DNA from: Desulfovibrio sp.
Lineage (GTDB): Bacteria; Desulfobacterota; Desulfovibrionia; Desulfovibrionales; Desulfovibrionaceae
Direction of reading: 5' to 3'
Assembly (NCBI GenBank): GCA_016208105.1
Contig: JACQYS010000025.1
Location: 1 to 61,357, forward strand
Length of the DNA stretch: 61,357 bases
Positions 2,092 to 48,697 of this stretch are shown piece after piece. The position numbers were made by a program, and so were the translations under genes. Every line of letters begins with the position of its first letter. Within the stretch, counting starts at the first letter, position 1. The notes beneath the pieces are model-generated. The model did not search any database. It had not been told where the DNA came from and saw nothing but the letters and a program-made list of their open reading frames with translations.

Positions 2092-2143
2092 CGTCTTTGA
2101 TGCGGCCAAGGGTCTACGCCGGGCTTTGGCAAAGGAGAACAGC

Positions 2144-2767: not shown

Positions 2768-2783
2768 AGCCAACGGCCCGCCC

Positions 2784-4361: not shown

Positions 4362-4472
4362 TTTGCCAAGTCAAAAGTGATATTGACGCGCCTGGCATCG
4401 AAGCAGAATATCTCCCCCTCGGATTGAGCTCATCCGTGCCCCCCCAAGTAATCGCTGAAGTGGAGAAGTGTC

Positions 4473-4844: not shown

Positions 4845-4869
4845 AGCAACCCACGGGAATATCCGAGGT

Positions 4870-6408: not shown

Positions 6409-6625
6409 GACCACCTCCGGACATGTTCCGTTCGAAAACCAACACCCCGGCCGGGGGCATCGTTCGGGCGAACCAATACCGCTTTATGCGCTTTAAATCC
6501 ACAGTCCGTTACATGCCGCCACACCTGAAAATAGCACTTTACATACAAACCCCGACAACAGTTTTCTTGTGCTGCCCTGGTTTCAAAATTGGCAACGCCT
6601 GTGGGGAGTCTTCCGAACGGCGAAA

Positions 6626-6660
6626 TGAAAAAGCGCCCCGTCCGCATGGGACAGGGCGCT
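6626..6660 (-). terminator. Rho-independent terminator of lepB
   Basis: An 11-pair stem with one mismatch (AGCGCCC-GTCC pairing with GGAC-GGGCGCT, loop GCAT) lies at 6632-6660, and reading leftward it is followed by TTTTTCATTT. The hairpin sits 28 bases past the lepB stop codon on the minus strand. Confidence 0.85.
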
Positions 6661-6687
6661 TCAATGGACTGATGGTCGCTCGTACAG

Positions 6688-7287: not shown

Positions 7288-7315
7288 TCTGTGTCCTTTC
7301 TTTTTAGAGAGAAAC

Positions 7316-7385
7316 GGGGCACCGCCCCGTGCCCCGGCAGGGCTCCGCCCTGCACCCGCCAGGGGAATGATTCCCCTGGACCCCC
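7316..7385. repeat. Three successive GC-rich palindromes between lepA and lepB
   Basis: Three short inverted repeats follow one another: GGGGCACCGCCCC (7316-7328), CAGGGCTCCGCCCTG (7338-7352) and CCAGGGGAATGATTCCCCTGG (7359-7379), the last followed by ACCCCC. The block fills most of the gap between two minus-strand genes. Its make-up resembles the GC-rich intergenic repeats I associate with Desulfovibrio-type genomes, but no second copy is in this window. It could fold in the lepA-lepB transcript and affect mRNA stability or read-through. Confidence 0.55.
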
Positions 7386-7401
7386 AAAAGGGCCATCGGG
7401 A

Positions 7402-31703: not shown

Positions 31704-32257
31704 ACTTCAATATATTTGCTTAACTCTTCGCTGTTCAGATCCAAAATGGTCAGACGATGCAATCCCAATCTGGTAGCGTGCTGTCACTAGGAAAGGCATG
31801 CGCTCGATGCTTTGTCGCATGCCCAAACAGCACTCGGCTGGCTCTACGATTATTTACAAAGATATCCTTGAAGACCAACTTGCCTACATTAATTCAGTAA
31901 CGTGGTGTTTAAGCCTCAACTTTCACCTCCCAGCCGCCTAAATCATGAATTTCGTAAATTCAACCCGCCACCTGTTGCTCCGTTTGCAGACACCGGCCAA
32001 ACGTCACGCTCTGTTTGTATTACTCGTTCAAGACTAAGCTTGTTGAAGACACAAATTGCTTCCTCATCGAAGAAACGGCCGTCCTTATGATTAAAACCTT
32101 GCGACTAAACTCACGAAAATCAACAGGACTATCCTTTGGGAAGATCCTTGACTCGTCCTGAAGCTTCGCATATGGCCCCACAGTCTAGCTTGAGCAGCAA
32201 TATTGTCGAACATCTTCTTCGATTTATATTCCCGCGATGCGCCTTCATGGAGAACTT
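31704..32257. other. AT-rich gap before the glycan cluster, no intact gene
   Basis: This 554-base stretch holds only short open frames without recognisable similarity. It must include the promoter for the first glycan gene, but no clear -35/-10 pair, hairpin or JUMPstart-like element can be picked out by eye. Confidence 0.5.
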
Positions 32258-33271
32258 ATGACCCCGCGCGCTCTGATCACCGGCATTACCGGCATGGTCG
32301 GTTCCCATCTGGCCGACTACCTTCTGGAAAAAACCGATTGGGATGTACACGGCATGTGCCGCTGGCGCAGCCCTCTCGACAATGTTTCTCATCTGTTGAA
32401 ACGGGTCAACCAGTGCGACAGGGTCTATTTCCATGATGGTGACCTAACCGACTCTTTTTCCCTGGGGCGGGTGATGGAGGCTGTGCAACCTGATTACGTC
32501 TTTCATCTGGCGGCCCAGAGTTATCCTTCCACCAGCTTTACCTCCCCCATCCAGACCTACGACACCAACATCCTTGGTACCCACCGCCTGCTGGAAGTCA
32601 TTCTGCGTACCGAAGGTGTTGATCCAGTTATTCATGTCTGCTCCTCCTCGGAGGTTTTCGGCCGAGTCAGCCGGGACAAGCTGCCCATAAACGAGTTCTG
32701 CGCCTTCCACCCGGCTTCGCCTTACGCTATCTCCAAGATCGGCACGGATATGATCGGGCAGTACTTTGCCGAGGCTCACGGTTTGAAATGCTTAGTTACC
32801 CGCATGTTCACTCACACTGGTCCGCGTCGTGGTGATGTGTTCGCCGAGTCAACCTTCGCCAAGCAAATCGCCATGATTGAGGCCGGACTCATCCCCCCAG
32901 TGGTGAAAACCGGCAACCTGGAGTCGCTTCGAACCTGGGCTGACGTTCGTGACGCCGTGCGAGCTTATCACCTGCTGGTGACGGTGAATCCCATACCTGG
33001 CCAGTGCTACAACATCGGCGGAAGCTTTTCCTGCGGAGTGGGCGACATGCTGGCCCATTTGGTGTCCATCTCTACCCGGCGCGATGACATCCGCGTGGAG
33101 CAGGAACCTTTGCGCCTGCGCCCCTTGGACGCCGACCTCCAGATTCCCGACACCTCCAAATTTAGGAACCACACTGGCTGGGAGCCTCGCATCCCATTTG
33201 AAAAGACCATGCAGGATTTGCTGGACTACTGGCGTGAACGCGTGCGCCACGGCACCTTCCTGACGCGCTGA
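32258..33271 (+). CDS. GDP-mannose (or GDP-manno-heptose) 4,6-dehydratase-like SDR
   Basis: This 337-residue extended SDR has the nucleotide-binding motif GITGMVGSHLADYL at the N-terminus. The catalytic set is of dehydratase type: SSSEVFGRV (Ser/Glu) followed by SPYAISK (Tyr-xxx-Lys). The loop TRMFTHTGPRRGDVFAEST parallels the HESPRRGETF substrate loop of GDP-mannose 4,6-dehydratases. Relatives such as DmhA act on GDP-manno-heptose, and HddA/HddC-like genes later in the cluster favour that substrate here. GDP-4-keto-6-deoxymannose reductase is the other option. The frame is open from 32237, but GGAG at 32249-32252 supports ATG 32258. It heads the plus-strand glycan operon. Confidence 0.82.
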   Translation: MTPRALITGITGMVGSHLADYLLEKTDWDVHGMCRWRSPLDNVSHLLKRVNQCDRVYFHDGDLTDSFSLGRVMEAVQPDYVFHLAAQSYPSTSFTSPIQTYDTNILGTHRLLEVILRTEGVDPVIHVCSSSEVFGRVSRDKLPINEFCAFHPASPYAISKIGTDMIGQYFAEAHGLKCLVTRMFTHTGPRRGDVFAESTFAKQIAMIEAGLIPPVVKTGNLESLRTWADVRDAVRAYHLLVTVNPIPGQCYNIGGSFSCGVGDMLAHLVSISTRRDDIRVEQEPLRLRPLDADLQIPDTSKFRNHTGWEPRIPFEKTMQDLLDYWRERVRHGTFLTR

Positions 33272-34266: not shown

Positions 34267-35024
34267 TGAAGACCAAAGAGCATCAGGCCATTTTCATGTC
34301 CAGCAGCCAGGAAAAGAACGGGTACGAGCGATTCGCCGAATGCCTGCACAACACCCCACTGCCCACTGGCGAGCTGGCGCATAACTCCGCGCTGTACGTT
34401 CCCTCGAAGACCATGACGCGAATGCTGTTCTTCTACGAGTTGTACAAGAAGCTGGTGAACACCCACGGCGTTATCATCGAGTTCGGCGTGCGCTGGGGCC
34501 AGAGCCTGTCCATCCTCTCCGCCCTGCGTGGTATCTTCGAGCCTTTCAACCGCCACCGTAAAATCATCGGCTTCGACACCTTCGAAGGTTTCGCCGGAGT
34601 CAGCGACAAGGACGGTGAACGCTCCGGCTGCGATGAAGGCGCCTATTCCGTGCCTAGCGGCTACGAAGCCCACCTATCTGAAATCCTGTCCCTTCAGGAA
34701 GAACTGAACCCCATTAGCCACCTCAAAAAGTTCGAGTTGGTCAAGGGCGATGTACGCCAGACCGTGAGCGAATACCTGGCCCGCCAGCCCGAGACCGTGG
34801 TCTCCATGGCTATCTTCGACCTGGATATCTACGAGCCCACCAAAGTAGCCCTGGAAGCCATTCTGCCCCATCTGTGCAAGGGATCCATCCTGGTGTTCGA
34901 CGAACTTTCCGACGACATCTTTCCCGGCGAAACTTTGGCCCTGGACGAAGTCCTCGGGCTCCGCAACATCCGCTTGCAGCGCTTCCCCATGACCGCCCGC
35001 ATGTCTTATCTGGAGATCGAATAA
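34266..35024 (+). CDS. TylF/MycF-like SAM-dependent sugar O-methyltransferase (copy 1)
   Basis: This 252-residue class I methyltransferase of the TylF group, enzymes that methylate sugar hydroxyls in a metal-dependent way, has SAM-binding segments GVIIEFGVRWGQSLSIL and IIGFDTFEGFAGV. The metal/substrate region is DLDIYEPTKVALEAILPHL...GSILVFDEL. It is the most divergent of three paralogues here. It overlaps the SDR upstream and the transketolase downstream by one base each, so the three are translationally coupled. Acceptor sugar unknown. Confidence 0.8.
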   Translation: MKTKEHQAIFMSSSQEKNGYERFAECLHNTPLPTGELAHNSALYVPSKTMTRMLFFYELYKKLVNTHGVIIEFGVRWGQSLSILSALRGIFEPFNRHRKIIGFDTFEGFAGVSDKDGERSGCDEGAYSVPSGYEAHLSEILSLQEELNPISHLKKFELVKGDVRQTVSEYLARQPETVVSMAIFDLDIYEPTKVALEAILPHLCKGSILVFDELSDDIFPGETLALDEVLGLRNIRLQRFPMTARMSYLEIE

Positions 35025-35803
35025 TGCTGGAATCATGCAAAGCCATCCGCCGCGAGATTCTGCAAATCGCCCGGCACACCGGCCATGGCCACATCCCGTC
35101 GTGTTTTTCCGTGGTAGAGGCCTTGACCGCCGTCTACTCGGTGATGCGTCACAACCCCGCCCAGCCGGACATGCCCGGCCGGGACGTGTTCATCCTGAGT
35201 AAAGGTCACGCCTCGCTGGCCCAGTATACCCTCCTGGCCCAGATGGGCTACGTGTCCATGGAGGAGGTCTACACCTACGGCGCGCTCAACGCCCGCTTCG
35301 GCTGCCACCCGGACCGCACCAAGATTCCTGGCGTGGAAGCCTCCACCGGCTCGCTTGGCCACGGCATCGGCCTGGCCGTGGGCGTGGCAATGGCCTTCCA
35401 GATAAAGGGCACGGACCAGCGGGTATACACCCTGGTGGGAGATGGCGAAGCCAACGAAGGCAGCGTGTGGGAAGCCGTGCTTGTGGCCGTGGACCAGAAG
35501 CTCAACAACCTGACCGTCATTTACGACAATAATCGTTCCCATGCGCGCGGCCTGCAAATCGAGGATCCAGCCGCTCACTTCGCGGGGTTCGATTGCGAGG
35601 TGGCAGTAGTGGACGGCCACGACGTCCCCGCCCTCACCGCGGCCCTGAAAGCCAAAAACGACAGGCCCAGGGCCATCGTGGCCAATACCACCAAGGGTTA
35701 TGGCTGCCCCTCCATGACGGAAAATCATTACGCTTGGCACCGCCGTTCGCCCAAGGACGACGAACTTGCGGCGCTGCTGGCCGAACTTGAGGTGGCCCAA
35801 TGA
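35024..35803 (+). CDS. Transketolase-like protein, N-terminal (thiamine diphosphate-binding) subunit
   Basis: This 259-residue subunit corresponds to the first third of transketolase. It has HGHIPSCFSVVEAL, the SKGHASLAQYTLL segment, STGSLGHGIGLAVGVAMAF, and the thiamine diphosphate/Mg motif GDGEANEGSVWEAVLVAV ending in YDNN. The partner half is the next gene. Split transketolases inside glycan clusters are thought to act on unusual sugars, for example moving a two-carbon ketol unit onto a keto-sugar, instead of serving the pentose phosphate pathway; that is inference here. GGAG lies before the start, which overlaps the previous stop. Confidence 0.88.
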   Translation: MLESCKAIRREILQIARHTGHGHIPSCFSVVEALTAVYSVMRHNPAQPDMPGRDVFILSKGHASLAQYTLLAQMGYVSMEEVYTYGALNARFGCHPDRTKIPGVEASTGSLGHGIGLAVGVAMAFQIKGTDQRVYTLVGDGEANEGSVWEAVLVAVDQKLNNLTVIYDNNRSHARGLQIEDPAAHFAGFDCEVAVVDGHDVPALTAALKAKNDRPRAIVANTTKGYGCPSMTENHYAWHRRSPKDDELAALLAELEVAQ

Positions 35804-36669
35804 GAAAGCAGTTCAAAGACACAGTGATGGATCTGGCCACCACGGATGGATCCATTGTCATCCTGCTAGGTGATGTCAGCGTCTATCTGTTCAACGAATT
35901 CAAGGAACGCCACCCCCATCGCTTCTATAACATGGGCATATGTGAGAACACGCTCATCAGCATGGCCGGAGGCATGGCCGCCCAGGGATTGACCCCTTTC
36001 GTGCACACCATTGCCCCCTTCCTCACCGAGCGCAGCTACGAACAGATCAAGCTGGACCTGTGCTACAACCGCTTCCCGGCCAACATCCTCACCTGCGGCG
36101 CCACCTTCGACTATGCCTGGGACGGTCCTTCCCACCATTGCTATACCGACCTGGCCATCCTGCGCCTGCTGCCCGGCATGGAAGTGCTGCAGCCCGGCTC
36201 ACGCAAGGAACTCGACGTGTTGCTGCGCAGCCACTACAACAACGGCAACCCTACATATTTTCGACTCTCGGACTTTCCCCACGGGGTAGACATCCCTGTG
36301 GCGCCCGGCAAGGCCGTTGTGCTCAAGGATGAGGGTTCGACGGTGACGGTGATGACCGCAGGCCCCCTTCTGGGCGAAGTGTTCGAGGCCTGCAAGGATC
36401 TGGCGGTCAACCTGGTTTACCACCACACCATCAAGCCCCTGGACGCCGCTACCGTGGAACGCTTCCGCGATACGCACATCCTGTCCTTCCACGATGCTTT
36501 CGGCCTCAAGGAAGCCCTGGCCGACATCCCAGAGCTGCGCGTCACCGGTTACGGCCTGCGCGACGAGTTCTGCACCTGCTACGGACGGGTGGGAGACATG
36601 CGCAGCATGTTGGGGCTCGACGCCGCCTCCATCCGGGAAACCGTGCGCCGTAAGCTTGAAAGCGCCTAG
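35800..36669 (+). CDS. Transketolase-like protein, C-terminal subunit
   Basis: This 289-residue subunit contains the pyrimidine-binding and C-terminal transketolase domains. Landmarks are NMGICENTLISMAGGMAAQGLTPFVHTIAPFLTERSYEQIK, with the conserved Glu that activates thiamine, and TFDYAWDGPSHHCYTDLAILRLLPGMEVLQPGS. It overlaps the N-terminal subunit by four bases (ATGA) and should form the heteromeric enzyme with it. Confidence 0.88.
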   Translation: MRKQFKDTVMDLATTDGSIVILLGDVSVYLFNEFKERHPHRFYNMGICENTLISMAGGMAAQGLTPFVHTIAPFLTERSYEQIKLDLCYNRFPANILTCGATFDYAWDGPSHHCYTDLAILRLLPGMEVLQPGSRKELDVLLRSHYNNGNPTYFRLSDFPHGVDIPVAPGKAVVLKDEGSTVTVMTAGPLLGEVFEACKDLAVNLVYHHTIKPLDAATVERFRDTHILSFHDAFGLKEALADIPELRVTGYGLRDEFCTCYGRVGDMRSMLGLDAASIRETVRRKLESA

Positions 36670-36673
36670 CTCC

Positions 36674-38653
36674 ATGGATGCGGTGGCCCAGGCAACACCC
36701 GACGAGCGCCTGCGCGTCGGGTTCGTGCAGATAGGCAACAGCTTCGCGGACGCCTGCTATTTCCCGTATTCCGTCGGGCTCTTGCAGGCGTATGTCCAGC
36801 GGCACGCCGCAAGGCCCTGCCGCTACGTCTTTCTGGACCCACTCTACCAGCGCCAGCCCTGGATCCAGGCCGTGGAGAGCATGCTTGAGACCGACGTGGC
36901 CGCCTTCAGCGTCTACGTCTGGAATCACAACCTCTCGCTCAAGATCGCCCGGGAGCTTAAACGCGCCCGGCCCGGCATCTTCATAGTCTTCGGCGGCCCT
37001 CACGTGCCCGACAGGGCTGAGGACTACCTACACGAGCATGCCTTCATCGATCTGGCCTGCCATGGCGAAGGGGAGCAGACCTTCCTCTCGGTGCTCGAGG
37101 CCCTTCCGGGGCGGGATTTTTCCGCCATCCCCTCCGTGAGCTGGCTGGAGAACGGCAGATTCCGCTCCACCCCGCGGGCTCCCCGGCTGGAAGACTACTC
37201 CACTATACCGTCGCCTTACCTGGAAGGGGTCTTTGACAAACTTATGGCCGCCCATCCCGAGCATAAATGGCTCGGTGTCTGGGAAACCAACCGTGGCTGT
37301 CCCTTCACCTGTGCCTACTGCGATTGGGGTTCGGCCAATGCCTCCAAGGTGCATCATTTCGAAATGGACCGCCTGCGGCGCGAAGCCTTGTGGTTCGCCC
37401 GCAGCAAGGTTGAATTCATATTCTGCTGCGACGGCAACTTCGGCATGTTCAAGCGAGACCGGGACATCGCGGCTATGGTGGCAGAGATCAAGGCTGAGTA
37501 TGGCTATCCCCAGGCCCTGTCGGTGCAGAACACCAAGAACGCGGCGGAACGCTCCTTCGAAATTCAGGAGATCCTCTCGCGTGGCGGTCTGAACAAGGGT
37601 GTAACCCTGGCCATGCAGACAATGAACCCCACTGCCCTGGAACTGGTGGGGCGCCAAAACATCTCCACCCAAGCCTTCCAAGAGCTGCAAAGCCGGTTTG
37701 CCGCAGCAAAGGTGGAAACGTACACCGATCTCATCCTGGCCTTGCCTGGGGAGACCTACCGGTCATTCGCTGAAGGGGTCTCGGAGATCGTCGTTGGCGG
37801 GCAGCACAACCGCATACAGTTCATCAACCTGTCCATCCTGCCCAACGCCCGCATGGGCGCACCTGAGTACCAGCGTCTCCACGACATGGTCACCGTGGAA
37901 TCCAAGGTCATCAACATCCATGGCGCCCTGGCCATGGAGGATGACGACGTGGCCGAAACCCAGGTGCTGGTGGTGGGCACGGGCACCATGCCTGTGGAAG
38001 ACTGGGTGCGAACCCGAGCCTTCTCTTGGATGACGGCGCTTCTGTACTTCGACAAGCTGTTGCAGATTCCCATGCTGCTCCTGCAGGCCCACCACGGCCT
38101 GGCCTGCCACGAACTTGTTGAAGCCTTTCTGGAATCGGACGAGGCTGCGCCGCTGCTGGGCGAAATCAGGGATTTTTTTTTCGAGCAGGCCCGTGCGGTA
38201 TCACGGGGAGCGCCAGAATACTTCGGCGCATCTGAGTGCCTGGGTATTTTCTGGCCCCATGACGAATACGTCTTCATCACCTTAAGCCGCGACGGCAAGC
38301 TGCCCAGGTTTTACCAGGAGGCCGAGGAAGCCCTTTCACGGGTCTGCCTGAAACGAATGGAGCAAATTCCGGCATTTCTGAGCGACGCCGTAGCCCTGAA
38401 CCAGGCTCTGGTGAAGCAGCCCTTCATCGTGGAGGAATCCGAACTCCGCTTGGAGCACGATGTGTACGGGGCTTACCGAGCCGCCTTGGCCGGAGAAACG
38501 AGCCTCTCCGTTTCGGAGATGGACAATCCGGCGACCTACCGGATAAAAAGCGCAGACACATCCTGGTCCTCCTGGGAGGACTGGATGCGCAAGGTCGTCT
38601 GGTACGGCAACAAGAAAGGGGACTACCTCTACACTGCGGACGTCCAACGCTAA
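36674..38653 (+). CDS. B12-binding-domain radical SAM enzyme
   Basis: This is a 659-residue protein. Residues about 15-145 resemble a cobalamin-binding Rossmann domain (YFPYSVGLLQAYVQ, then FIVFGGPHVPDRAEDYL and CHGEGEQTFLSVLEAL). The radical SAM core carries the 4Fe-4S motif C209-PFT-C213-AY-C216, followed by VEFIFCCDGNFGM and ETYTDLILALPGETYRSF. The C-terminal 250 residues are unassigned. The B12-dependent class often methylates unactivated carbons or rearranges rings. In a sugar cluster it may C-methylate or otherwise change a nucleotide-linked sugar; the substrate is unknown. The start ATG has only a weak ribosome binding site. Confidence 0.85.
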   Translation: MDAVAQATPDERLRVGFVQIGNSFADACYFPYSVGLLQAYVQRHAARPCRYVFLDPLYQRQPWIQAVESMLETDVAAFSVYVWNHNLSLKIARELKRARPGIFIVFGGPHVPDRAEDYLHEHAFIDLACHGEGEQTFLSVLEALPGRDFSAIPSVSWLENGRFRSTPRAPRLEDYSTIPSPYLEGVFDKLMAAHPEHKWLGVWETNRGCPFTCAYCDWGSANASKVHHFEMDRLRREALWFARSKVEFIFCCDGNFGMFKRDRDIAAMVAEIKAEYGYPQALSVQNTKNAAERSFEIQEILSRGGLNKGVTLAMQTMNPTALELVGRQNISTQAFQELQSRFAAAKVETYTDLILALPGETYRSFAEGVSEIVVGGQHNRIQFINLSILPNARMGAPEYQRLHDMVTVESKVINIHGALAMEDDDVAETQVLVVGTGTMPVEDWVRTRAFSWMTALLYFDKLLQIPMLLLQAHHGLACHELVEAFLESDEAAPLLGEIRDFFFEQARAVSRGAPEYFGASECLGIFWPHDEYVFITLSRDGKLPRFYQEAEEALSRVCLKRMEQIPAFLSDAVALNQALVKQPFIVEESELRLEHDVYGAYRAALAGETSLSVSEMDNPATYRIKSADTSWSSWEDWMRKVVWYGNKKGDYLYTADVQR

Positions 38654-38668
38654 AACATAAGGCACATC

Positions 38669-39640
38669 ATGTACTTCAAAAATAAACGCGTGTTGGTTGC
38701 CGGAGGTACAGGCCTCATCGGCATCCCCTTGGTTGAGTTGCTTCTGGAGCAAGGTGCCGAGGTGCATATCGCCTCTCTTGACGACCCCGCCCGGGCGCAC
38801 CCGGACGCTGAGTTCACCCGCGCCGACATGATGCAGCCTGAAAACTGCCTCTCGGCCTGTAAGGGCAAGGACTTCGTTTTCAACATGCTTGGCGTGAAAG
38901 GCTCGCCCAAAGTGACCACCACCAAACCCGCAAGTTTCCTGGTTCCCACCATTGGCCTGGCCTTCAACCTGCTTGAAGCCACTCGCAAGCAGGGCGTGGG
39001 GGGGTATCTCTATGCCAGCTCCATTGCCGTATATTCCCCCTCGGAAGTGATGCACGAGGACGAAGTGTGGAAATCCTTCCCCTCGCCTAACGACTTCTAT
39101 GGTGGATGGGCCAAACGTACCGGTGAATTGCACGTGGAGGCCTGCCGTAAGGAGTACGGGTTGGAAAACCTAACTATCGTCCGCCCAGCCAACGTTTACG
39201 GTCCCTTCGATAATTTCGACTCACAGAATGCAATGGTGGTACCCTCACTAATCCGCCGAGCCCTCTCCGGCGAGCCGGAGCTGACCGTATGGGGCGACGG
39301 ATCCCCTGTGCGCGATTTCATACATGCTCGCGACGTGGCCCGCTGTATGTTGCTTGTCGCCGAAAAAGCACCTCAGCAACCCATCAATATCGGGAGTGGT
39401 GAAGGCGTTTCCATCCGGCAGCTTGTCGAGGTGATCGTTGATCAGCTGGACATGAAGCCCAAAGTGGTCTGGGATACATCCAAACCTACGGGTGATGCCA
39501 AACGCATCTTGGATGTGGCTCGCTCACGCGAACTCGGCTTCACCCCTCGGATTTCCCTGAAGGAAGGCGTGCGTGAAGTGATTGAATGGTACAAGGCCAA
39601 CCGAGAAGCTGGCGACCGGCGTTACGACATCTTCGCGTAG
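38669..39640 (+). CDS. NAD-dependent epimerase/dehydratase SDR with shifted catalytic Tyr
   Basis: This 323-residue extended SDR has NAD-binding GGTGLIGIPLVELLLEQGA and later motifs ASSIAVYSPSE, IVRPANVYGPFDNFDSQNAMVVPSLI and VRDFIHARDVARCML. The active-site stretch reads FY144-GGWA-K149, so Tyr sits one position earlier than in Tyr-xxx-Lys. It resembles 39666-40613 in the second half, which suggests duplication. It likely epimerises or reduces a 4-keto sugar from the 4,6-dehydratase. AAGG lies before the ATG. Confidence 0.82.
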   Translation: MYFKNKRVLVAGGTGLIGIPLVELLLEQGAEVHIASLDDPARAHPDAEFTRADMMQPENCLSACKGKDFVFNMLGVKGSPKVTTTKPASFLVPTIGLAFNLLEATRKQGVGGYLYASSIAVYSPSEVMHEDEVWKSFPSPNDFYGGWAKRTGELHVEACRKEYGLENLTIVRPANVYGPFDNFDSQNAMVVPSLIRRALSGEPELTVWGDGSPVRDFIHARDVARCMLLVAEKAPQQPINIGSGEGVSIRQLVEVIVDQLDMKPKVVWDTSKPTGDAKRILDVARSRELGFTPRISLKEGVREVIEWYKANREAGDRRYDIFA

Positions 39641-39665: not shown

Positions 39666-40613
39666 TTGTTCTACAATAACGCCAAAGTGCTCGTAACCGG
39701 CGGGGCAGGATTCGTGGGATCCCACTTTGTGGACGCATTACTCGCCCTGGGAGCGCGTGTTCGGACCACTACTCATCGCCGCTCCCTGTACGTCCAACAT
39801 CCAAACCTAGAAGCCATTCAGGTCGATCTGACCCGCAAGGAAGATTGCCTTGCGGTCTGCCGCGATGTTGACTATGTCATCCACGCCGCAGGTTCTGTCG
39901 GGGCTGCGGGGATCGGCGCCGCTGGGGTGATGGCCTCCATTACCGGCAACCTGGTGCAGACCTCGCAGATGCTGGAAGCCGCCTGGGGCTCCGGGGTCAA
40001 ACGGATGCTCGTCTTCAGCAGCAGCACGGTCTACCCGCCGACCGAACACCCCGTTCGCGAAGAGGAGATGTGGTCCGGCCCGCCGTATCCGGGATATTTC
40101 GGGTACGGGTGGATGCGACGCTACCTGGAGCGCCTAGCGGAATTCACGGCTCATAATGCGGACATGGGCGTAGCCATCTGTCGTCCAACGGCAGTATATG
40201 GGCCTCGCGACAATTTCGAACCGGCCACCAGCCACGTTATTCCAGCTCTTATTCGCCGCGCCGTGGCCAAGGAAAACCCTTTCCTCGTGTGGGGCACGGG
40301 GGAGGAAGTGCGCGACTTCTTGTACGTGACCGACCTTGTTCAGGGTTGCCTCACATTATTAGAAAAAAAAGCTGATGCCGACCCGGTCAATATCGGTTTT
40401 GGGCAAAGCGTACCTATCCGAGAAGTTGTTAACACCATTCTTAAATTTGCAGGACATGATCAAATTAATGTGATTTTTGATGCAACTAAACCGGTCGCGC
40501 TCCCTGTCCGGATGGTAAGTATCAATAAGGCCAGGAAGGATATTGTTTTTTCTCCTATGATTTCTTTGCAAGAAGGCATCCGATTGACAATAGAATGGTA
40601 CAATGCTCAATAA
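39666..40613 (+). CDS. NAD-dependent epimerase/dehydratase SDR; mosaic gene with a composition break
   Basis: This 315-residue extended SDR has NAD-binding TGGAGFVGSHFVDALLALGA and landmarks FSSSTVYPPTE, CRPTAVYGPRDNFEPATSHVIPALI and VRDFLYVTDLVQGCL. The catalytic pair is Y147-GWM-R151, with Arg in place of Lys. The start is TTG at 39666; an ATG at 39641 is out of frame. The TTG matches the beginning of the neighbouring paralogue (MYFKNKRVLV against MFYNNAKVLV). The first two thirds are GC-rich like the genes before it, but after about 40355 the codons become AT-rich, matching the following genes. This indicates a recombination join inside the gene. Confidence 0.8.
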   Translation: MFYNNAKVLVTGGAGFVGSHFVDALLALGARVRTTTHRRSLYVQHPNLEAIQVDLTRKEDCLAVCRDVDYVIHAAGSVGAAGIGAAGVMASITGNLVQTSQMLEAAWGSGVKRMLVFSSSTVYPPTEHPVREEEMWSGPPYPGYFGYGWMRRYLERLAEFTAHNADMGVAICRPTAVYGPRDNFEPATSHVIPALIRRAVAKENPFLVWGTGEEVRDFLYVTDLVQGCLTLLEKKADADPVNIGFGQSVPIREVVNTILKFAGHDQINVIFDATKPVALPVRMVSINKARKDIVFSPMISLQEGIRLTIEWYNAQ

Positions 40614-40657
40614 TGTACCATTTTTGTGTAAGGATTGACGAGAAGGGGTGACTAGCT

Positions 40658-41833
40658 ATGCGCGTATATATAAAAGGGCTGAATACTTGCGTAATGAGAA
40701 AGCAAAAAGTACTCCAGTATATGGCGTATATTACTGCAAATGGACATATGCTGGTAAACTCGCCTGAGGAAGCAGACTATTCAATAATCTGGACCTGTTC
40801 TTTTCGGCAAGATGTCCGAGATAATTCCTTGAGTGAGATTCAACGCTACGTGAATGGATATGATACGGAGGTCATCGTTGCGGGATGCATGCCTGATATT
40901 GACCCTGAGTTCTTAGCAGATGGCTTCGATGGGAAAATTGTTAACTGGAAAGATGATGCGCTTAAATTAGAGGCGATTTTTGGAGACAAGATCAAACTCG
41001 ATGACATGTCATCGATATTCATAGAACCGAAGTTGTACGACGATGTTGCAGCTTATAAGAAATCGAACCCACAAGCCGAAGCAACTTTTTATGACCAGTT
41101 TATCAAACTCTTGATTTCCGAGGGGTGCAATTATTCCTGTACATATTGTTCCGAACGGCTAATGTTCCCAAAATTTAAAAGTTTTTCCATGGATTCTCTT
41201 TTCAAAAAATGTGAATTGATGGTAAACGAAACCGGATTCACGAAAGTTGCACTGTTTGCGGATAGTCTCGGAGAGTATGGGAAGGACATCGGCACAGATT
41301 TTCCTTCCCTATTGCGAAGACTTCGGAAAATTCATCGAGAGTTACAATTTGTTCTTTTTAATTTCAATCCGACTCATTTCATATCATTTTTTGATGAGAT
41401 GAAAGAATTATTTGAGGAGAACTCTTTTTTCCATTTAAACCTACCGATACAGTCGGCCTCAGATAGAATATTACAGCTGATGCAACGGCCATACAGTCGT
41501 ATCGATATTGATCGAATCTACTCGTTTCTTAATGACATTAAGTTTGTAGAATTTGACACGCACATTATTGTAGGTTTTCCAGGTGAAACTGAAGAGGAAT
41601 TCCAGGAAACTGTGAACTTTGTATCACGCCATTGCCCAAAGTATGTCCTATTAAGCAAATGCCTTCTCAACAAACAAATTCCAGCATCCTTTCTTCCTGG
41701 GCGCATTGACTCTTGTACAATGCAAAATCGGATACAAAGCTTCGAGCAGCAAATAAAACCTCTTGGAATCATATGCAACTCGGACGGAAGCGACCACATA
41801 CAGGATCGCTTTAGAAGACTTAACAAATCTTAG
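40658..41833 (+). CDS. MiaB/RimO-like radical SAM (methylthiotransferase-type) protein, AT-rich copy
   Basis: This 391-residue protein is built like a methylthiotransferase without the TRAM domain. Three N-terminal Cys (C11 in LNTC, C47 in IWTC, C77 in AGC) match the second iron-sulfur cluster of MiaB/RimO, and C157-NYS-C161-TY-C164 is the radical SAM motif. Later parts, HLNLPIQSASDRILQLMQRPY and HIIVGFPGETEEEFQETV, are typical of the family. Methylthiotransferases normally modify tRNA or ribosomal protein S12. Without TRAM and inside a glycan cluster, the target here may be different. It is about as long as, and aligns without gaps over the first 170 residues with, the copy at 43537. Its codons are AT-rich. 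Confidence 0.85.
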   Translation: MRVYIKGLNTCVMRKQKVLQYMAYITANGHMLVNSPEEADYSIIWTCSFRQDVRDNSLSEIQRYVNGYDTEVIVAGCMPDIDPEFLADGFDGKIVNWKDDALKLEAIFGDKIKLDDMSSIFIEPKLYDDVAAYKKSNPQAEATFYDQFIKLLISEGCNYSCTYCSERLMFPKFKSFSMDSLFKKCELMVNETGFTKVALFADSLGEYGKDIGTDFPSLLRRLRKIHRELQFVLFNFNPTHFISFFDEMKELFEENSFFHLNLPIQSASDRILQLMQRPYSRIDIDRIYSFLNDIKFVEFDTHIIVGFPGETEEEFQETVNFVSRHCPKYVLLSKCLLNKQIPASFLPGRIDSCTMQNRIQSFEQQIKPLGIICNSDGSDHIQDRFRRLNKS

Positions 41834-41888
41834 TTGTTACAAGCAGCACGTAACCACGGTTTCACAAGCCAACTCTGAGGAGCTCAAT

Positions 41889-42686
41889 ATGGATTCTAAA
41901 ATAAATATTTCAAAAAAAGACACCCCAAAAAGCGAGATTCAGGGGTCTCGTCGGAAAGAAGACTTTGAATACTGGGATGAAATGATCGGTCTTATCACCA
42001 ATCATGATCATACAATTAAGCACGTCTTAGAGCAATGGCCTGTGTACGCTCGACGCATGCACCTTCAACGATTTCTTGCACATTACGAACTTTTTAAAAA
42101 TATCATAGACCTACCTGGGTGCATTGTCGAGCTAGGTGTTTACCGTGGAGCAAGTTTTTTCACTTGGTCGAAATTACTCGAGACATTTTGTCCTACCGAC
42201 AGGCGCCGCAAAGTTTTTGGCTTTGATCATTTTCGTGGGCTCCAGGACTTCCACTCTAAAGATGGCGCTCTCGATCCCATGGACGGGAAGATTCCGGGTG
42301 GCTACGATACCTCGGATGTTAAAACAGAAGTTGAAGGCTTAGTCAGATTGCACAACATGGACAATTTGATAAGTGGCATTGAAAGATGCCGAATCATTGA
42401 TGGCGACATTAAGGAAACTATTCCTCGCTTTCTTGAAGAAAATCCAGGCCTTCGAATCAGCCTCCTTCACTTTGACGTAGACCTGTATGAACCGACACTG
42501 TTGGGATTAGAGTATCTATTCCCTCTGGTGGTTAATGGAGGTGTTGTGATGTTCGATGAGTATGGATTGATTCCATGGGAAGGAGAAAGCCGCGCCGTGG
42601 ACGAGTATTTTGAAAAAATCGGGTACAGGCCAATGATAAAAAAATTCCCCTTTTCTGTTCAGCCTCACGGTTTTTTTTTCAAGTAA
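41889..42686 (+). CDS. TylF/MycF-like methyltransferase (copy 2, AT-rich)
   Basis: This 265-residue methyltransferase has FPVYARR-like QWPVYARRMHLQRFLAHYEL, SAM-binding CIVELGVYRGASFFTWSKLL and VFGFDHFRGLQDF, and the metal/catalytic region HFDVDLYEPTLLGLEYLFPLV with GGVVMFDEYGLIPWEGESRAVDEYF. The last segment is the TylF signature. The best match in this window is the copy at 44728. AGGAG at 41878-41882 supports ATG 41889; the frame is open further upstream into the previous gene. It directly follows the MiaB-like gene, as copy 3 does. Confidence 0.83.
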   Translation: MDSKINISKKDTPKSEIQGSRRKEDFEYWDEMIGLITNHDHTIKHVLEQWPVYARRMHLQRFLAHYELFKNIIDLPGCIVELGVYRGASFFTWSKLLETFCPTDRRRKVFGFDHFRGLQDFHSKDGALDPMDGKIPGGYDTSDVKTEVEGLVRLHNMDNLISGIERCRIIDGDIKETIPRFLEENPGLRISLLHFDVDLYEPTLLGLEYLFPLVVNGGVVMFDEYGLIPWEGESRAVDEYFEKIGYRPMIKKFPFSVQPHGFFFK

Positions 42687-42764
42687 CGGACACCACTTAA
42701 CACCCAGTGGCTCACGCAACACTACCAACGTCAACTATTCAATTACATCGAGTACACTAAAATC

Positions 42765-43505
42765 ATGACACAGAAACTTGACTTTACATTAATATTGCCT
42801 ACACTTAACGAAATTGAAGGATTACGGGTGATTATTGCCCAATTTGACCCTGCTATGATAAACAATATCATTGTTGTAGATGGTGGCTCAACAGATGGCA
42901 CCATTGAATATCTGAAAGATATTGGCATCAATGTTTTCATTCAATCCGGAAAACTTCTATCTAACGCCCTTGAAGAAGCTGTTGAAAGATCTGAATATGA
43001 TACTATCGTAACATTCAGCCCAGACGGGAACTGCCTCCCTGAGCGTATCACTCCACTTGTCAACAAGCTACAGGAAGGATACGACATGGTTGTTGTTTCC
43101 CGCTATTATAAAACAGCTTCCAGTGAAGATGACGACTTTGCCACAAGTCTTGGAAATAAATTTTTCACGAAACTCGTAAACATACTATTTAAGGCAAACT
43201 ATACAGACACACTTGGAATATTTCGCGCTTATACAAAATCTGCAATCATAAAAATGGCTTTACCTGGTATGATAGAAGAAAATTTTTTACGGAAAAATTT
43301 CGGATATATGAACAGTTGGGAACTTGGATCGTGTATTCGTGCCGCAAAGCTTAAGCTCAAAACTGCTGAAATCCCCGGTGACGAACCGGCTCGGATTGGA
43401 GGAACCCGAAAACTGTCAATACTTAAGAATGGAGTTGGTGCGTTGCTCCAGGTCTTCTATGAGTTCCTCCTTGGAAACCGCGTATTTAAAAAAAAGCAGA
43501 TCTAA
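42765..43505 (+). CDS. Glycosyltransferase family 2 (polyprenyl-phosphate sugar transferase-like)
   Basis: This 246-residue GT-A glycosyltransferase has the nucleotide-sugar motif IVVDGGSTDGTIEYLKD and acceptor-site Asp in TFSPDGNCLPERI, where DPM1 enzymes have a comparable SPDG/DADG stretch. VSRYYK and LGIFRAYTKSAIIKM follow. There is no clear C-terminal membrane helix. It may load a sugar on polyprenyl phosphate or transfer to a glycan. It is AT-rich and is the last gene of the AT-rich block. Confidence 0.82.
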   Translation: MTQKLDFTLILPTLNEIEGLRVIIAQFDPAMINNIIVVDGGSTDGTIEYLKDIGINVFIQSGKLLSNALEEAVERSEYDTIVTFSPDGNCLPERITPLVNKLQEGYDMVVVSRYYKTASSEDDDFATSLGNKFFTKLVNILFKANYTDTLGIFRAYTKSAIIKMALPGMIEENFLRKNFGYMNSWELGSCIRAAKLKLKTAEIPGDEPARIGGTRKLSILKNGVGALLQVFYEFLLGNRVFKKKQI

Positions 43506-43536
43506 TTGTCACTCAAATTAAGCATTGATGTATACA

Positions 43537-44718
43537 ATGAAAATCTGCATAGTATCTTTGAACTCGTGTGTCATGCGCAAGCAGAAGCTTGAGCAGTATG
43601 CACTGTTTTTCCGCGCCAACAACCATATCATGGTAGACAATGTCGACGAGGCCGACTGTTGTCTCGTTTGGACGTGCGGTTTTCGCTCTGATTTCCGAGA
43701 CGCCTGCCTGCTAGCCCTGGACGCCGTGCTGGCCAAATGCCCTGGCGAGACGATCATATCTGGCTGCCTGCCAGACATTTGCCCGGAGCTGCTTCCCCGC
43801 ACCCCGCGAAGCCGCATCGTAGCCTGGCGAGACGACGCCGAGGTGCTGGAGGGGCTGTTCGGCCAGGACGCAGCCCTGGACTCCTTCAGCCCTATCTTTG
43901 CCGAGCCCCGCAAATGCGAGGACACTGCTGCGTTTCGCAAACTCCATCCCGGCGCGGACGTGACCTTCCACGACCAGTTCATCAAGCTGGTGATCTCGGA
44001 AGGCTGCTTGTTCGACTGCACGTACTGCTCTGAAAAACTTGCCTTCCCCCCCTTCCGGAGTTTCCCTCTTGACGGACTTCTCTCCGCGGCCAAGGACATG
44101 ATGGAGCAGACGGGCGTCTACGACCTCATCCTCATGGCCGACTCCCTGGGCCAGTACGGGCTGGATATAGGCGAAACCTTCCCGGGTCTGCTGAACGCCC
44201 TATGCGCCCTAGACGCGCGCGTGGGCATAGCCCTGAACAATCTAAATCCCGCCAACTTTGCAGCGCAGATCGATGACATGTCCGAACTGATCCGACAGGG
44301 GCGCTTGCGCCACCTGAATCTGCCTATCCAATCCGCCTCGGACAGGATTCTCAAGCTGATGAACAGAGCGTACAATCAGAGGGATCTTCATCTCATCTAC
44401 GAGCGGCTGGCCTCGCTTGGTTTCACTGCCCACGACACCCACCTCATCGCGGGCTTTCCCGGCGAAACGGCTGAGGATTTCCAGAAATCCATCGACTTCA
44501 TCCTCTGCCACAGGCCTCGCTATGTTTTGCTGTCCCAGTATATGGAGTCCCAGGCCGCGCCTTCCGCTCGCCTGGGGAACAAGGTCGATGCTTCCACTGT
44601 ACGATCACGTTTGCAGGCAGCCGAAGCTGCTTTTGCAAAGGCCGGAATCATCTGTAACTGTGACGACAGTGAACTCAGCCGGCAGCGCCTCGTGACACTT
44701 TTCCTGAACAAAAGTTAA
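43537..44718 (+). CDS. MiaB/RimO-like radical SAM (methylthiotransferase-type) protein, GC-rich copy
   Basis: This 393-residue paralogue of 40658-41833 has identical Cys spacing: C11, C47 and C77 for the second cluster and C157-LFD-C161-TY-C164 for the radical SAM cluster. The shared core HLNLPIQSASDRILKLMNRAYN and HLIAGFPGETAEDFQKS is clear, and again there is no TRAM domain. I chose ATG 43537 because it aligns exactly with the paralogue start; TTG 43525 and ATG 43528 are in frame upstream and none has a good ribosome binding site. Composition is GC-rich from the first codons onward, unlike the genes just upstream. Confidence 0.85.
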   Translation: MKICIVSLNSCVMRKQKLEQYALFFRANNHIMVDNVDEADCCLVWTCGFRSDFRDACLLALDAVLAKCPGETIISGCLPDICPELLPRTPRSRIVAWRDDAEVLEGLFGQDAALDSFSPIFAEPRKCEDTAAFRKLHPGADVTFHDQFIKLVISEGCLFDCTYCSEKLAFPPFRSFPLDGLLSAAKDMMEQTGVYDLILMADSLGQYGLDIGETFPGLLNALCALDARVGIALNNLNPANFAAQIDDMSELIRQGRLRHLNLPIQSASDRILKLMNRAYNQRDLHLIYERLASLGFTAHDTHLIAGFPGETAEDFQKSIDFILCHRPRYVLLSQYMESQAAPSARLGNKVDASTVRSRLQAAEAAFAKAGIICNCDDSELSRQRLVTLFLNKS

Positions 44719-44727
44719 GGAGCCCCC

Positions 44728-45507
44728 ATGCCTACATCAAATGCCGATGGCGAACGCATATTCGATGGACGCGCAAAGTTTACAGCCGACAACTCCATCG
44801 AAGAGCTCCTCCTTAAGCATTTCGAGAAATTCGATGTTTCCCATACGGAAATCTGCAACAACTTTCCTATCTACGCCCGGCGCATCTTTTTAAAACGCTT
44901 TCTTGCCCATTATGAATTCTACCAGAGAGTAGTAGATCTCCCAGGCGACATCGTCGAGCTTGGGGTTTATCGCGGCACAAGCCTCATGTCCTGGGCCAAC
45001 TTCCTGGAAATCCGCAACATGGGCGACCGCCAGAAGCAGGTCTTCGGCTTCGACAACTTCGTGGGTTTCACCTCCATGCACGAGAAGGACGGCAAGGAAG
45101 ACGCCAACGTGGGGAAAACCCTCTCCGGGTTCAACAGTCACGCCTTCGCCGAAATGCTCGAGGACGCAATCTCCATTTACGATCAGGACCGCTTCATTCC
45201 CTACAAGCCACGGGTCAAGCTGATCAAGGGCGACATCGAAACCACCGTTCCCAGGTTCGTGGAGGACAATCCCGGCTTGCGCATCTGCCTGCTGCATTTC
45301 GACTGCGACATGTACCTGCCCACGAAAACAGGTCTGGAGCACCTCTGGCCCCTGGTGGTCCCGGGAGGCGTGGTGCTCTTCGACGAGTACGCCATCCGGC
45401 CGTGGGAAGGCGAAAGCGCCGCAGTGGACGAATTCTTCAAGGGCAAGGTGAAAATACGTCGTTTGGATTGGGCTCCGAACCCCGGTGGATACGTCATCAA
45501 GGAATAA
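44728..45507 (+). CDS. TylF/MycF-like methyltransferase (copy 3, GC-rich)
   Basis: This 259-residue methyltransferase closely resembles copy 2: NFPIYARRIFLKRFLAHYEF, DIVELGVYRGTSLMSWANFL, VFGFDNFVGFTSM, CLLHFDCDMYLPTKTGLEHL and GGVVLFDEYAIRPWEGESAAVDEFF. It follows a MiaB-like gene with a nine-base gap and AAGGAG. The paired order in both places suggests the two proteins work on the same substrate. The expected reaction is SAM-dependent O-methylation of a sugar. Confidence 0.84.
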   Translation: MPTSNADGERIFDGRAKFTADNSIEELLLKHFEKFDVSHTEICNNFPIYARRIFLKRFLAHYEFYQRVVDLPGDIVELGVYRGTSLMSWANFLEIRNMGDRQKQVFGFDNFVGFTSMHEKDGKEDANVGKTLSGFNSHAFAEMLEDAISIYDQDRFIPYKPRVKLIKGDIETTVPRFVEDNPGLRICLLHFDCDMYLPTKTGLEHLWPLVVPGGVVLFDEYAIRPWEGESAAVDEFFKGKVKIRRLDWAPNPGGYVIKE

Positions 45508-46604: not shown

Positions 46605-47504
46605 ATGCTTTATCTCACCTCCTGCTGTTCACCCAGTCGAGCCATTGTCGAAGCCGTGGCAAGCATAGTCGCTCTGGGCATCACAAACATCGAACTGACT
46701 GGAGGGACCCTCTATGAACACTATGATTTAAGCGCCTTAAGAGCTTTGAAAACGAAACATAACCTGAACTTTCTCATCCATAACTACTTTCCTCCCCAGT
46801 CCGAGGAGTTTGTACTCAATCCGGCCTCGACAAACCCGGAAATCCGCTCCCGTGTGCACCAAACCTTGGCCGACAGCATCTCCCTGGCCCAGTCTTTCGG
46901 CCACAACCTCTACAGCCTGCATGCAGGATTCAGTTACGACCAGATACCGATTTTCCGCGATGACGGCCTCTTTACGCCCATGAGCGGGCCGCGTTTCTGC
47001 CGGGACAATCTTTACGAAGGGGTGGAACGTATCGCCGCTACTATCCTACCGCCAGAGGTCAACCTAGCTTTAGAGAACGCGTTTCCCCTGTCCAAGGCAG
47101 GGCGATTCTCGCTCATGGCTTCGCCCGAGGACATCCTGGCATTTCTTGAGCGTTTCGCCGACAGCAAAAACGTCGGGCTACTGCTTGACCTGGGGCACCT
47201 GAACCTGTCCGCCTGCCGTCTGGGATTTGATAAGATCGCATTCTTGGACAGACTGCTTGGCGATTGGGGGCACAAGATTTTCGAGGTCCACGCCAGCGCC
47301 AACAATGGCGAGCACGACAGCCATAACCTGAACACGGTGGACGACTTCGAGATTCAGTTTATCAAGGGTGCCCGGAAGATTTTGGAACATGCCCCCATCA
47401 TCCTGGAGTGGCATGACTGTCTCTCGCAGCAGGCGGCCGAAACTTATTTCGACATCGCCCGGTATCTTGATCTTATACCCTCACCCCTGGACGCAAACCC
47501 ATGA
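46605..47504 (+). CDS. Xylose isomerase-like TIM-barrel protein
   Basis: This 299-residue protein fits the AP-endonuclease-2/xylose-isomerase barrel. Candidate metal ligands occur at the expected strand ends: Glu in VNLALENAFPL, Asp/His in GLLLDLGHLNL, His in IFEVHASANNGEHDSHN and Glu in PIILEWHD. Family members isomerise or epimerise sugars and inosose, or cut DNA. In this position, between the heptose kinase and a PLP 3-dehydratase, a sugar isomerase is most plausible. It overlaps the next gene by four bases. Confidence 0.75.
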   Translation: MLYLTSCCSPSRAIVEAVASIVALGITNIELTGGTLYEHYDLSALRALKTKHNLNFLIHNYFPPQSEEFVLNPASTNPEIRSRVHQTLADSISLAQSFGHNLYSLHAGFSYDQIPIFRDDGLFTPMSGPRFCRDNLYEGVERIAATILPPEVNLALENAFPLSKAGRFSLMASPEDILAFLERFADSKNVGLLLDLGHLNLSACRLGFDKIAFLDRLLGDWGHKIFEVHASANNGEHDSHNLNTVDDFEIQFIKGARKILEHAPIILEWHDCLSQQAAETYFDIARYLDLIPSPLDANP

Positions 47505-48697
47505 GAATTCCTTTCGGAACCCTTACCATCACCAGTAAGGCCAAGCAGCTCGTAATGGAATGCCTCGACAAAGGCCGAGTCTCCAGCGGGCGCCTCGTCC
47601 GGGAACTGGAGGAGCGCATCGCCGACCTTATCGGTGTCAAGGAAGCCGTGGCTGTCTCCAGCGGCACCGACGCCGACACCCTAGCCCTGGCTGTGGTTCA
47701 CGATCTAGGCGCTCAGCGCGGCGATGAGGTCATAATTCCGGCCCTTTCGTTCGTGGCCACGGGCAACGCAGTGCTCCACGCCGGGCTCACTCCCGTGTTT
47801 GTTGATGTTGACCCTGAGACCCTGAACATCGATCCGGCCCGAATCGAGGCGGCCATCACCCCCCGCACCAGAGCCATCATGCCAGTGCACCTCATGGGCA
47901 AGCCCGCCGACATTGATGCCATAAACTCCATCGCTAGGCGGTACGATCTTCTGGTGGCCGAAGACGCTGCCGAGGCTTGGGGAGCACGCTACAAGGACCG
48001 GACTATCGGCTCTCTGGGGGATATGGGCGCGTTCAGCCTCTACGTGGCCCACGTAATCACCAGCATCGAGGGCGGCGTCATAACCACAGACAACGAGCAC
48101 TACGCCGAAATTCTGCGATCTCTGCGCTCCCATGGCCGCTCCTGCACCTGCAAGACCTGCGTCTCCAACACCACATCGGGGTTCTGCGAGAAGCGCTTCG
48201 ATCCCAAGCTGGGCGACATCCGTTTCCGGTTCCAACGGGCGGGATATTCTTGCAAGATGAACGAGTTAGAAGCCGCTGTGGGAATAGGCGGATTCGACAT
48301 GTTTGAAGAAATCCGTGCCATCCGCCACGCCAACCTCATGGCCATGATTGATGGATTCCAGGCCTTCAAGGACGTACTGTGGACCTACCGGGAAGAACCC
48401 CACGAACTCATCGGCCCCCACGCATTCCCCTTTGTGGTGCGCAAGGGCGCCCCTTTCACTCGGGACGAGCTTATGATCCACTTGGAGCGCAACGGGGTGG
48501 ACGCTAGGACGCTCTTCACCTCTATCCCCACCCAGTGCGGCGGGTACGAATTCCTGGGGTATAGTTTGGGAAACTTCCCCAATGCGGAATATATCGGCGA
48601 CAATGGCATCCATATCGGCGTACACCAAGACGTGACCGTCTCGGACATCGACTGCTTCCTCGAATGCATTCAGGGATTCGTGCGGGAAAAGTGTTGA
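47501..48697 (+). CDS. E1/RfbH-like PLP-dependent sugar 3-dehydratase (DegT fold)
   Basis: This 398-residue DegT/DnrJ-fold protein has the usual PLP-binding segments (VSSGTDADTLAL, LLVAEDAAEAWGARY). The Schiff-base Lys of aminotransferases is replaced by His184 in FSLYVAHVITSIEGG, the hallmark of 3-dehydratases such as ColD and RfbH/E1. It also has a Cys group C215-x-C217-xx-C220-x8-C229 in the place where E1 enzymes hold a 2Fe-2S cluster. I therefore read it as an E1-like 3-dehydratase that removes the C3 hydroxyl from a 4-keto-6-deoxy sugar nucleotide. No E3 reductase gene is visible. A plain aminotransferase is unlikely without the Lys. Confidence 0.83.
   Translation: MRIPFGTLTITSKAKQLVMECLDKGRVSSGRLVRELEERIADLIGVKEAVAVSSGTDADTLALAVVHDLGAQRGDEVIIPALSFVATGNAVLHAGLTPVFVDVDPETLNIDPARIEAAITPRTRAIMPVHLMGKPADIDAINSIARRYDLLVAEDAAEAWGARYKDRTIGSLGDMGAFSLYVAHVITSIEGGVITTDNEHYAEILRSLRSHGRSCTCKTCVSNTTSGFCEKRFDPKLGDIRFRFQRAGYSCKMNELEAAVGIGGFDMFEEIRAIRHANLMAMIDGFQAFKDVLWTYREEPHELIGPHAFPFVVRKGAPFTRDELMIHLERNGVDARTLFTSIPTQCGGYEFLGYSLGNFPNAEYIGDNGIHIGVHQDVTVSDIDCFLECIQGFVREKC

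Follow-up and report, generated by a model that had tools for sequence, protein, structure and literature searches.

The described enzymes closest to the proteins considered here are the methylthiotransferases MiaB, RimO and MtaB. In the chemistry set out for such enzymes, a sulfide on the UPF0004 cluster is methylated by one S-adenosylmethionine (SAM), a second SAM yields a 5'-deoxyadenosyl radical, and transfer of the methylthio group follows (PMC5352715). A 2023 study names ribosomal protein S12 as the sole known methylthiotransferase substrate besides tRNA (PMC10702137). Here we describe two gene pairs on a contig of Desulfovibrio sp. (GenBank assembly GCA_016208105.1, contig JACQYS010000025.1), the whole 61,357-nucleotide stretch being referred to as the window. 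Each pair encodes a methylthiotransferase-like radical SAM protein devoid of a TRAM domain and a TylF-like methyltransferase. We propose, at about an even chance of being right, that the radical SAM proteins belong to a separate and rare TRAM-less branch of the methylthiotransferases in nucleotide-sugar biosynthesis, adding sulfur or a methylthio group to a sugar that the TylF-like partner also methylates. No TRAM-less or sugar-acting methylthiotransferase appears in the titles or abstract beginnings of the matches listed from the open-licence PMC literature.

Two radical SAM and TylF gene pairs

The pairs occupy 40658-42686 and 43537-45507. The start codons of their four open reading frames (ORFs) are those of the original prediction. 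The genes, with the one that lies between the pairs, are listed below; GC3 is the G+C fraction at third codon positions.

40658..41833, + strand: TRAM-less methylthiotransferase-like radical SAM protein 1; 391 amino acids; UPF0004 and Radical_SAM; GC3 0.41
41889..42686, + strand: TylF/CalS11-like methyltransferase of pair 1; 265 amino acids; TylF 57.6 bits; CalS11 E 1.6e-31
42765..43505, + strand: GT2 glycosyltransferase, third gene of the apparent low-GC insert; GC3 0.36; a 49% identical GT2 adjoins the pair of locus L070
43537..44718, + strand: TRAM-less methylthiotransferase-like radical SAM protein 2; 393 amino acids; UPF0004 and Radical_SAM; GC3 0.72
44728..45507, + strand: TylF-A methyltransferase of pair 2; 259 amino acids; TylF 66.6 bits; CalS11 E 8e-28

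The original prediction described two modules with the same gene order, six methylthiotransferase Cys at identical positions and no TRAM domain. The ORF coordinates and the shared strand bear out the first of these. The radical SAM proteins share 46% identity and have C11, C47, C77, C157, C161 and C164 in register, and Pfam finds UPF0004 and Radical_SAM in both and TRAM in neither. Against a Pfam cut-off of 27 bits, UPF0004 lies above in protein 1 (42.4) and below in protein 2 (23.0), while both methyltransferases pass the TylF cut-off of 23 bits. The best NCBIfam model for both radical SAM proteins is that of the MiaB/RimO subfamily, TIGR00089, with 185.9 bits for protein 1 and 154.3 for protein 2; its cut-off of 251 bits, which neither reaches, is passed by all eight ordinary methylthiotransferases scanned.

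A TRAM-less clade

A family set of 14 non-redundant members was assembled, comprising the window's two and L015, L016, L021-L025, L027, L066, L070, L071 and L072. L016 and L026 are the same contig, and the 14 members correspond to 13 loci, 12 of them outside the window. The original prediction had tentatively set the two proteins apart from tRNA- and S12-modifying enzymes, and a 46-row tree including MiaB, RimO and MtaB agrees with it: the 14 members form a single clade (100/100) on a long stem, and the MiaB, RimO and MtaB rows are each separate. Together with 11 more distant rows, taken as TRAM-less from the length after their radical SAM domain, the members split at 100/100 from 21 ordinary rows, eight of which were typed by NCBIfam and the others by N-terminal motif and tree position.

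The Cys pattern extends through the family, since C11, C47, C77 and the CX3CX2C motif are kept in 14/14 members, and UPF0004 is found in all of them at E 0.01. The first gap between the UPF0004 Cys is X35 throughout and the second X28-30 (X29 in 12). The spacing in methylthiotransferases is quoted as CX35-36CX32-33C (PMC5352715), a range that is too narrow because two measured MtaB homologues have a second gap of X30 and the first gaps of ordinary enzymes include X34. At two sites that are fixed or nearly so in the 21 ordinary rows, all 14 members differ: N near the first Cys is replaced by R14, and R(K)G after CX3CX2C by FP (170-171).

Pfam finds TRAM in 0/14 members, compared with matches to TRAM in 13 and to TRAM_2 in eight of 19 ordinary enzymes, two sets whose overlap is not given. 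The residues following P308 number 84-91 in the family and 127-146 in 20 of the 21 ordinary rows. The remaining row (L048:1492-2634, from an Omnitrophota genome) has 78; it is a MiaB-typed ORF ending at 380 amino acids, too short for TRAM, and a frameshift is possible. Among the more distant relatives, L017, L018, L019 and L020 look TRAM-less by length, and L011, whose gene is also in L018, scores 289 bits, over the MiaB/RimO subfamily cut-off.

Structure prediction, named in the original prediction as a check, was carried out. An AlphaFold2 model built from ten members has a mean predicted local distance difference test score of 89.7, and its best PDB matches are the MtaB integrative model, MiaB and RimO, with template modelling (TM) scores of 0.69-0.74 by query length. 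A profile of the 14 members likewise aligns along almost its full length with RimO (8e-47) and MiaB (5e-34).

Ordinary methylthiotransferases are present alongside the family. A search of the window's genome returns its two family genes and weaker matches that include L003, L004 and L005. L004 passes the NCBIfam RimO cut-off, L005 is nearest the MtaB model but under its cut-off (329.8 against 357), and L003 is called MiaB from its motif and place in the tree. Six of seven related genomes searched, G625 being the exception, likewise carry ordinary enzymes; across all these genomes, the window's included, eight ordinary enzymes were typed with NCBIfam and the rest by motif and tree. Because they have no TRAM, miss the TIGR00089 cut-off and fall outside the three established groups, the window proteins are, as judged from sequence, not MiaB, RimO or MtaB but a TRAM-less variant of the methylthiotransferase kind.

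Linkage, cassette and distribution

An A-type TylF gene lies immediately downstream of the radical SAM gene in seven of the 14 members (both window copies, L016, L021, L022, L023 and L025). In L070 a GT2 gene intervenes between the two, bringing the linkage to 8/14. Pairing and Cys pattern exceed chance, since all 12 members outside the window keep the six Cys and eight of the 14 have a nearby downstream TylF. Relatives of the pair-2 TylF, 63-77% identical, occur on six loci (L016, L021, L022, L023, L025 and L070); the pair-1 TylF is more distant, at 45%. If a second type, TylF-B, is included, a TylF is found on the locus for 11/14 members. The recurrence of the pair in other genomes, a check named in the original prediction, holds for the linked members and breaks down at L015 (a phage contig), L066 and L072, where the locus has no TylF. 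An obligatory TylF partner is ruled out by these three, by L024, which has a different methyltransferase directly downstream, and by L027 and L071, where TylF-B is the sole TylF. The L066 gene nevertheless has FkbM and rhamnosyl O-methyltransferase (CmcI-type) genes around it, and that of L027 is near a contig end, with an upstream partner possible. Among 395 sampled genomes of the window's phylum, TylF-A matches above 450 bits are confined to two genomes with a family radical SAM gene, the window's own and G199; further relatives at 174-182 bits are found in G149, G242, G152 and G125.

From 32 to 52 kb the contig carries a 4,6-dehydratase, three epimerases, TylF-B, a split transketolase, a B12-binding radical SAM protein, a sugar kinase, aminotransferases and a nucleotidyltransferase. 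The Pfam and NCBIfam matches uphold the glycan-cluster setting originally described, and the region reads as a nucleotide-sugar cassette. The following features flank the pairs:

32237..33271, + strand: GDP-mannose 4,6-dehydratase-like (GDP, guanosine diphosphate; Pfam); relatives in L021, L027 and L071
33289..34266, + strand: NAD-dependent epimerase/dehydratase; relatives in L021, L022, L024 (33%) and L071
34254..35024, + strand: TylF-B methyltransferase; Methyltransf_24 26.6 bits (cut-off 26.3); TylF 20.2 bits, under the cut-off of 23
35024..35803, + strand: transketolase, N-terminal half; Transketolase_N 5.2e-40; start codon inferred
35800..36669, + strand: transketolase, pyrimidine-binding/C-terminal half; Transket_pyr 8.2e-25
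36674..38653, + strand: B12-binding radical SAM protein, nearest to KedN5-type C-methyltransferases; 257.3 bits, cut-off of 700 not reached; start codon inferred
38669..39640, + strand: NAD-dependent epimerase/dehydratase (Pfam)
39666..40613, + strand: NAD-dependent epimerase; relatives directly precede the radical SAM gene in L021, L022, L024 and L071
45519..46526, + strand: GHMP sugar kinase, HddA-like; 144.2 bits, cut-off of 600 not reached; start codon inferred
47501..48697, + strand: DegT/DnrJ sugar aminotransferase; 62% identical relative in L022
50973..51686, + strand: sugar-1-phosphate nucleotidyltransferase, HddC/ManC-like; matches in 6/12 loci; start codon inferred

Much of this set travels with the family. 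The kinase (relatives 52-64% identical) and both transketolase halves are matched in the same seven of the 12 loci outside the window, so that with the window 8/13 loci share the cassette. In two of the seven the transketolase is more divergent (37% for the N-terminal half, 31-33% for the C-terminal). TylF-B relatives, 44-65% identical, occur in L016, L021, L022, L024, L027 and L071. At 1e-10 cassette genes are matched in none of 20 ordinary methylthiotransferase loci, whose flanks extend only about 1.0-1.5 kb. The KedN5-like protein at 36674-38653, a possible C-methyltransferase, has cassette relatives in L021 (47%) and L022 (40%). A xylose-isomerase-like TIM barrel at 46605-47504 matches the MbnB/TglH/ChrH family weakly (26.3 bits against a cut-off of 25) and has no counterpart at 1e-10 among the 12 related loci. 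Promoter-like sites number 10 against 7.5 +/- 2.5 in shuffles, and terminator-like sites five against 8.0 +/- 3.1.

The two pairs were originally taken for a duplication, and the data are better explained by the import of a different pair. GC3 is 0.41, 0.43 and 0.36 in radical SAM gene 1, the pair-1 TylF and the GT2 gene, as against 0.72 in both genes of pair 2 and 0.60-0.79 in nine other measured genes. The GT2 gene at 42765-43505 separates the pairs. In the tree the pair-1 TylF falls together, at a moderate 87/84, with TylF genes that have SPASM radical SAM genes nearby. Relatives of the epimerase at 39666 with at least 50% identity occur in four other loci, and in all four they directly precede the one family gene. 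For the methyltransferases, a recent tandem duplication is rejected, a common clade of the two failing narrowly in the approximately unbiased (AU) test (p 0.035), and GC3 also makes it unlikely. The radical SAM proteins speak against it less strongly: they are not sisters in the best tree, yet sisterhood is not rejected (AU p 0.076). No direct repeat of at least 14 bp was found in 40400-43700. Taking GC3, the intervening GT2, the TylF lineage and the epimerase adjacency seen elsewhere together, pair 1 and the GT2 gene look like a three-gene insert between 40613 and 43537; in our reading pair 2 is native to the cassette and pair 1 a second pair, imported along with its own glycosyltransferase.

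The family as a whole is thinly spread. When GTDB contigs were scanned with a four-row alignment as the query, 13 of 62 pattern matches proved to be relatives, seven of them close (41-50%): a Methanoperedens archaeon, three Geobacter/Geobacteraceae, an Omnitrophota, a deltaproteobacterium and a member of the Magnetococcales. Two scans of viral contigs each returned the same single member, L015 (40%). Its gene, at 3867-5060 of a 15 kb phage contig, lies between those of the large terminase (1909-3867) and the portal (5865-7388), and no cassette gene was matched on that contig. Genome searches at E 1e-70 or better, with counts that include the genome on which each search was centred, found the family in 2/247 sampled genomes of the window's order (its own and G519), 3/141 of L022's order, 1/185 of L021's order, 1/334 of L024's phylum and 4/48 of L027's class; none of the five listed genomes of the window's genus has it. 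Six of the 395 phylum genomes match a two-row query at E 1e-40, the window's genome and G199 strongly and the other four at 1e-41 to 1e-49, the latter lying outside the clade in the tree. In phage and plasmid records, identity is at most 28.2% among the best 20 of 26 and the best 20 of 25 matches.

Because the clade is rare, scattered and crosses domains, its distribution suggests horizontal transfer. The Methanoperedens locus, L021, is an archaeal contig that holds most of the cassette in similar order, along with GmhA-like and GmhB genes, and its radical SAM protein is placed beside two Geobacteraceae (94/68). This is likely to reflect cross-domain transfer of the cassette, the alternative being assembly contamination. 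Separately, a Thermoplasmata contig (L028:9968-16547) has clustered radical SAM relatives at 9968, 11272 and 13814, with pieces at 15293 and 15606.

Proposed function and known systems

Retention of the Cys, taken with the chemistry of the family, points by analogy to sulfur or methylthio transfer to a nucleotide sugar, and the sugar-gene context and missing TRAM favour a small substrate. The SAM-binding cluster would sit on CX3CX2C, and the three UPF0004 Cys would carry an auxiliary [4Fe-4S] cluster, one iron site of which stays free. On the model of RimO and MiaB, the auxiliary cluster would bear a sulfide that takes a methyl group from a first SAM; cleavage of a second would give the 5'-deoxyadenosyl radical, which would abstract H from a sugar carbon to which S-CH3, or S, then moves. 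A nucleotide-activated sugar, which may derive from a heptose, is the probable substrate; its makers would be the cassette's 4,6-dehydratase, epimerases, split transketolase, HddA-like kinase and HddC-like nucleotidyltransferase. The adjacent TylF protein may act on this sugar too, earlier or later than the sulfur step, as an O-methyltransferase or else an S-methyltransferase.

A bolder form of the proposal, which we hold tentatively and at a little under an even chance, is that of a family of glycan methylthiotransferases, spread horizontally over bacteria, an archaeon and a phage, that convert a C-H of a nucleotide sugar, perhaps of heptose type, to C-SCH3, often with a dedicated O-methyltransferase, the window cell making two differently methylthiolated sugars, one of them by way of the imported three-gene insert. 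To our knowledge, these would be the first methylthiotransferases to act on a small molecule. If sulfur is transferred, the chemistry of these enzymes would be widened to small molecules, a radical route to thiosugars would be opened and substrate choice by methylthiotransferases would become testable with a small substrate. Even otherwise, the clade points to a sugar pathway that includes a radical SAM step.

Several observations weigh against the proposal or limit it. The shortfall at TIGR00089 is one, and the members with no TylF on the locus (L015, L066 and L072), with another methyltransferase (L024) or with TylF-B only (L027 and L071) are others. The transketolase of L023 and L025 is only 31-37% identical to the window's. 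Co-divergence of the pair partners (eight pairs: Mantel r 0.48, p 0.016; with pair 1 left out: r 0.69, p 0.004) speaks for the proposal, but relatedness may be all that it reflects. The Pfam scan, which covered 20 genes of the window, turned up none dedicated to sulfur mobilisation. The heptose substrate, a possibility, depends on models mostly below their cut-offs. The strongest argument against the sulfur step is that weaker TylF-A relatives (259-321 bits) in G025, G055 and the window genome's own contig C8 lie near SPASM radical SAM genes, for which reason the pairing alone does not point to sulfur.

These SPASM-linked relatives, two of the three with a split transketolase, lend support to the main rival, in which the methylthiotransferase core is kept but its radical chemistry on the sugar involves no sulfur, being an epimerisation, a dehydration or an oxidation, and TylF methylates the product. 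'Radical SAM plus TylF' may then be a wider theme that accommodates different radical SAM types and reactions, and the sugar diol-dehydratase AprD4 is a lower-ranking structural match (TM 0.65-0.67, root mean square deviation 8-9, 10% identity). However, three UPF0004 Cys invariant in 14/14 members are hard to explain without a need for an open-site auxiliary cluster, and the family profile, which finds RimO and MiaB, does not have AprD4 among its matches at E 0.1; we regard this rival as unlikely, though one to be taken seriously. The region on C8 (L085, 142000-158000) combines two SPASM radical SAM genes with a split transketolase, a TylF relative (261 bits) and, by eye, E1-dehydrogenase-like ORFs; G025 (L083) is alike.

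A good deal less probable is that the radical SAM protein inserts only S to give a thiol, with TylF as the S-methyltransferase that completes a methylthio sugar. The tight, co-directional gene pairing would suit this, and LipA is described as a sulfur-inserting radical SAM enzyme with an auxiliary cluster (PMC5352715). The nearest named TylF relatives, however, are O-methyltransferases (CalS11 and mycinamicin III 3''-O-methyltransferase), and the known methylthiotransferases are described as supplying the methyl themselves (PMC5352715). Lastly, that these are tRNA- or ribosomal-protein-modifying enzymes incidentally located in a glycan cluster is very improbable: the homology to MiaB, RimO and MtaB is recognisable, and MiaB is reported to contact tRNA with all three domains, beyond TRAM (PMC10702137), but the family has no TRAM, forms a separate clade, is rare and scattered with repeated sugar-gene linkage, and in the window's genome occurs in addition to MiaB-, RimO- and MtaB-like genes.

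Turning again to sulfur or methylthio transfer, 5-deoxy-5-methylthio-xylofuranose on mycobacterial lipoarabinomannan is a natural methylthio sugar on a bacterial glycan (PMC3229680), a precedent only for the occurrence of such sugars. The GDP-D-glycero-D-manno-heptose pathway (GmhA, HddA, GmhB, HddC) offers a fuller comparison, with an HddA-like kinase and HddC-like transferase in the window and all four types in L021. The kinase scores 144.2 bits in the window and 148.4 in L021 against an equivalog cut-off of 600, and the transferase 142.5 and 152.3 against 300; the window transferase scores higher, at 169.9, on the mannose-1-phosphate model, likewise below cut-off. In L021 GmhB is above its cut-off and the GmhA-like SIS protein below. 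Among window ORFs of at least 80 amino acids there is no convincing GmhA or GmhB match (best E 0.17), the rest of the genome not having been searched. Relative to this pathway, the split transketolase and radical SAM genes are additions.

Of solved proteins, the one nearest in sequence to each TylF protein (113 and 101 bits) is CalS11, the thymidine diphosphate-rhamnose 3'-O-methyltransferase of calicheamicin, which is described as acting at the sugar-nucleotide stage (PMC4760980). Unlike CalS11, the window TylF genes are paired with a radical SAM gene. With RimO, MiaB and MtaB the family shares the UPF0004 and radical SAM domains, the six Cys, the predicted fold and a near full-length profile match; it departs from them in the absence of TRAM, its own clade, the R14 and FP substitutions and its nucleotide-sugar context, and its second Cys gap of X28-30 is below the X32-33 quoted for them, although two MtaB homologues have X30.

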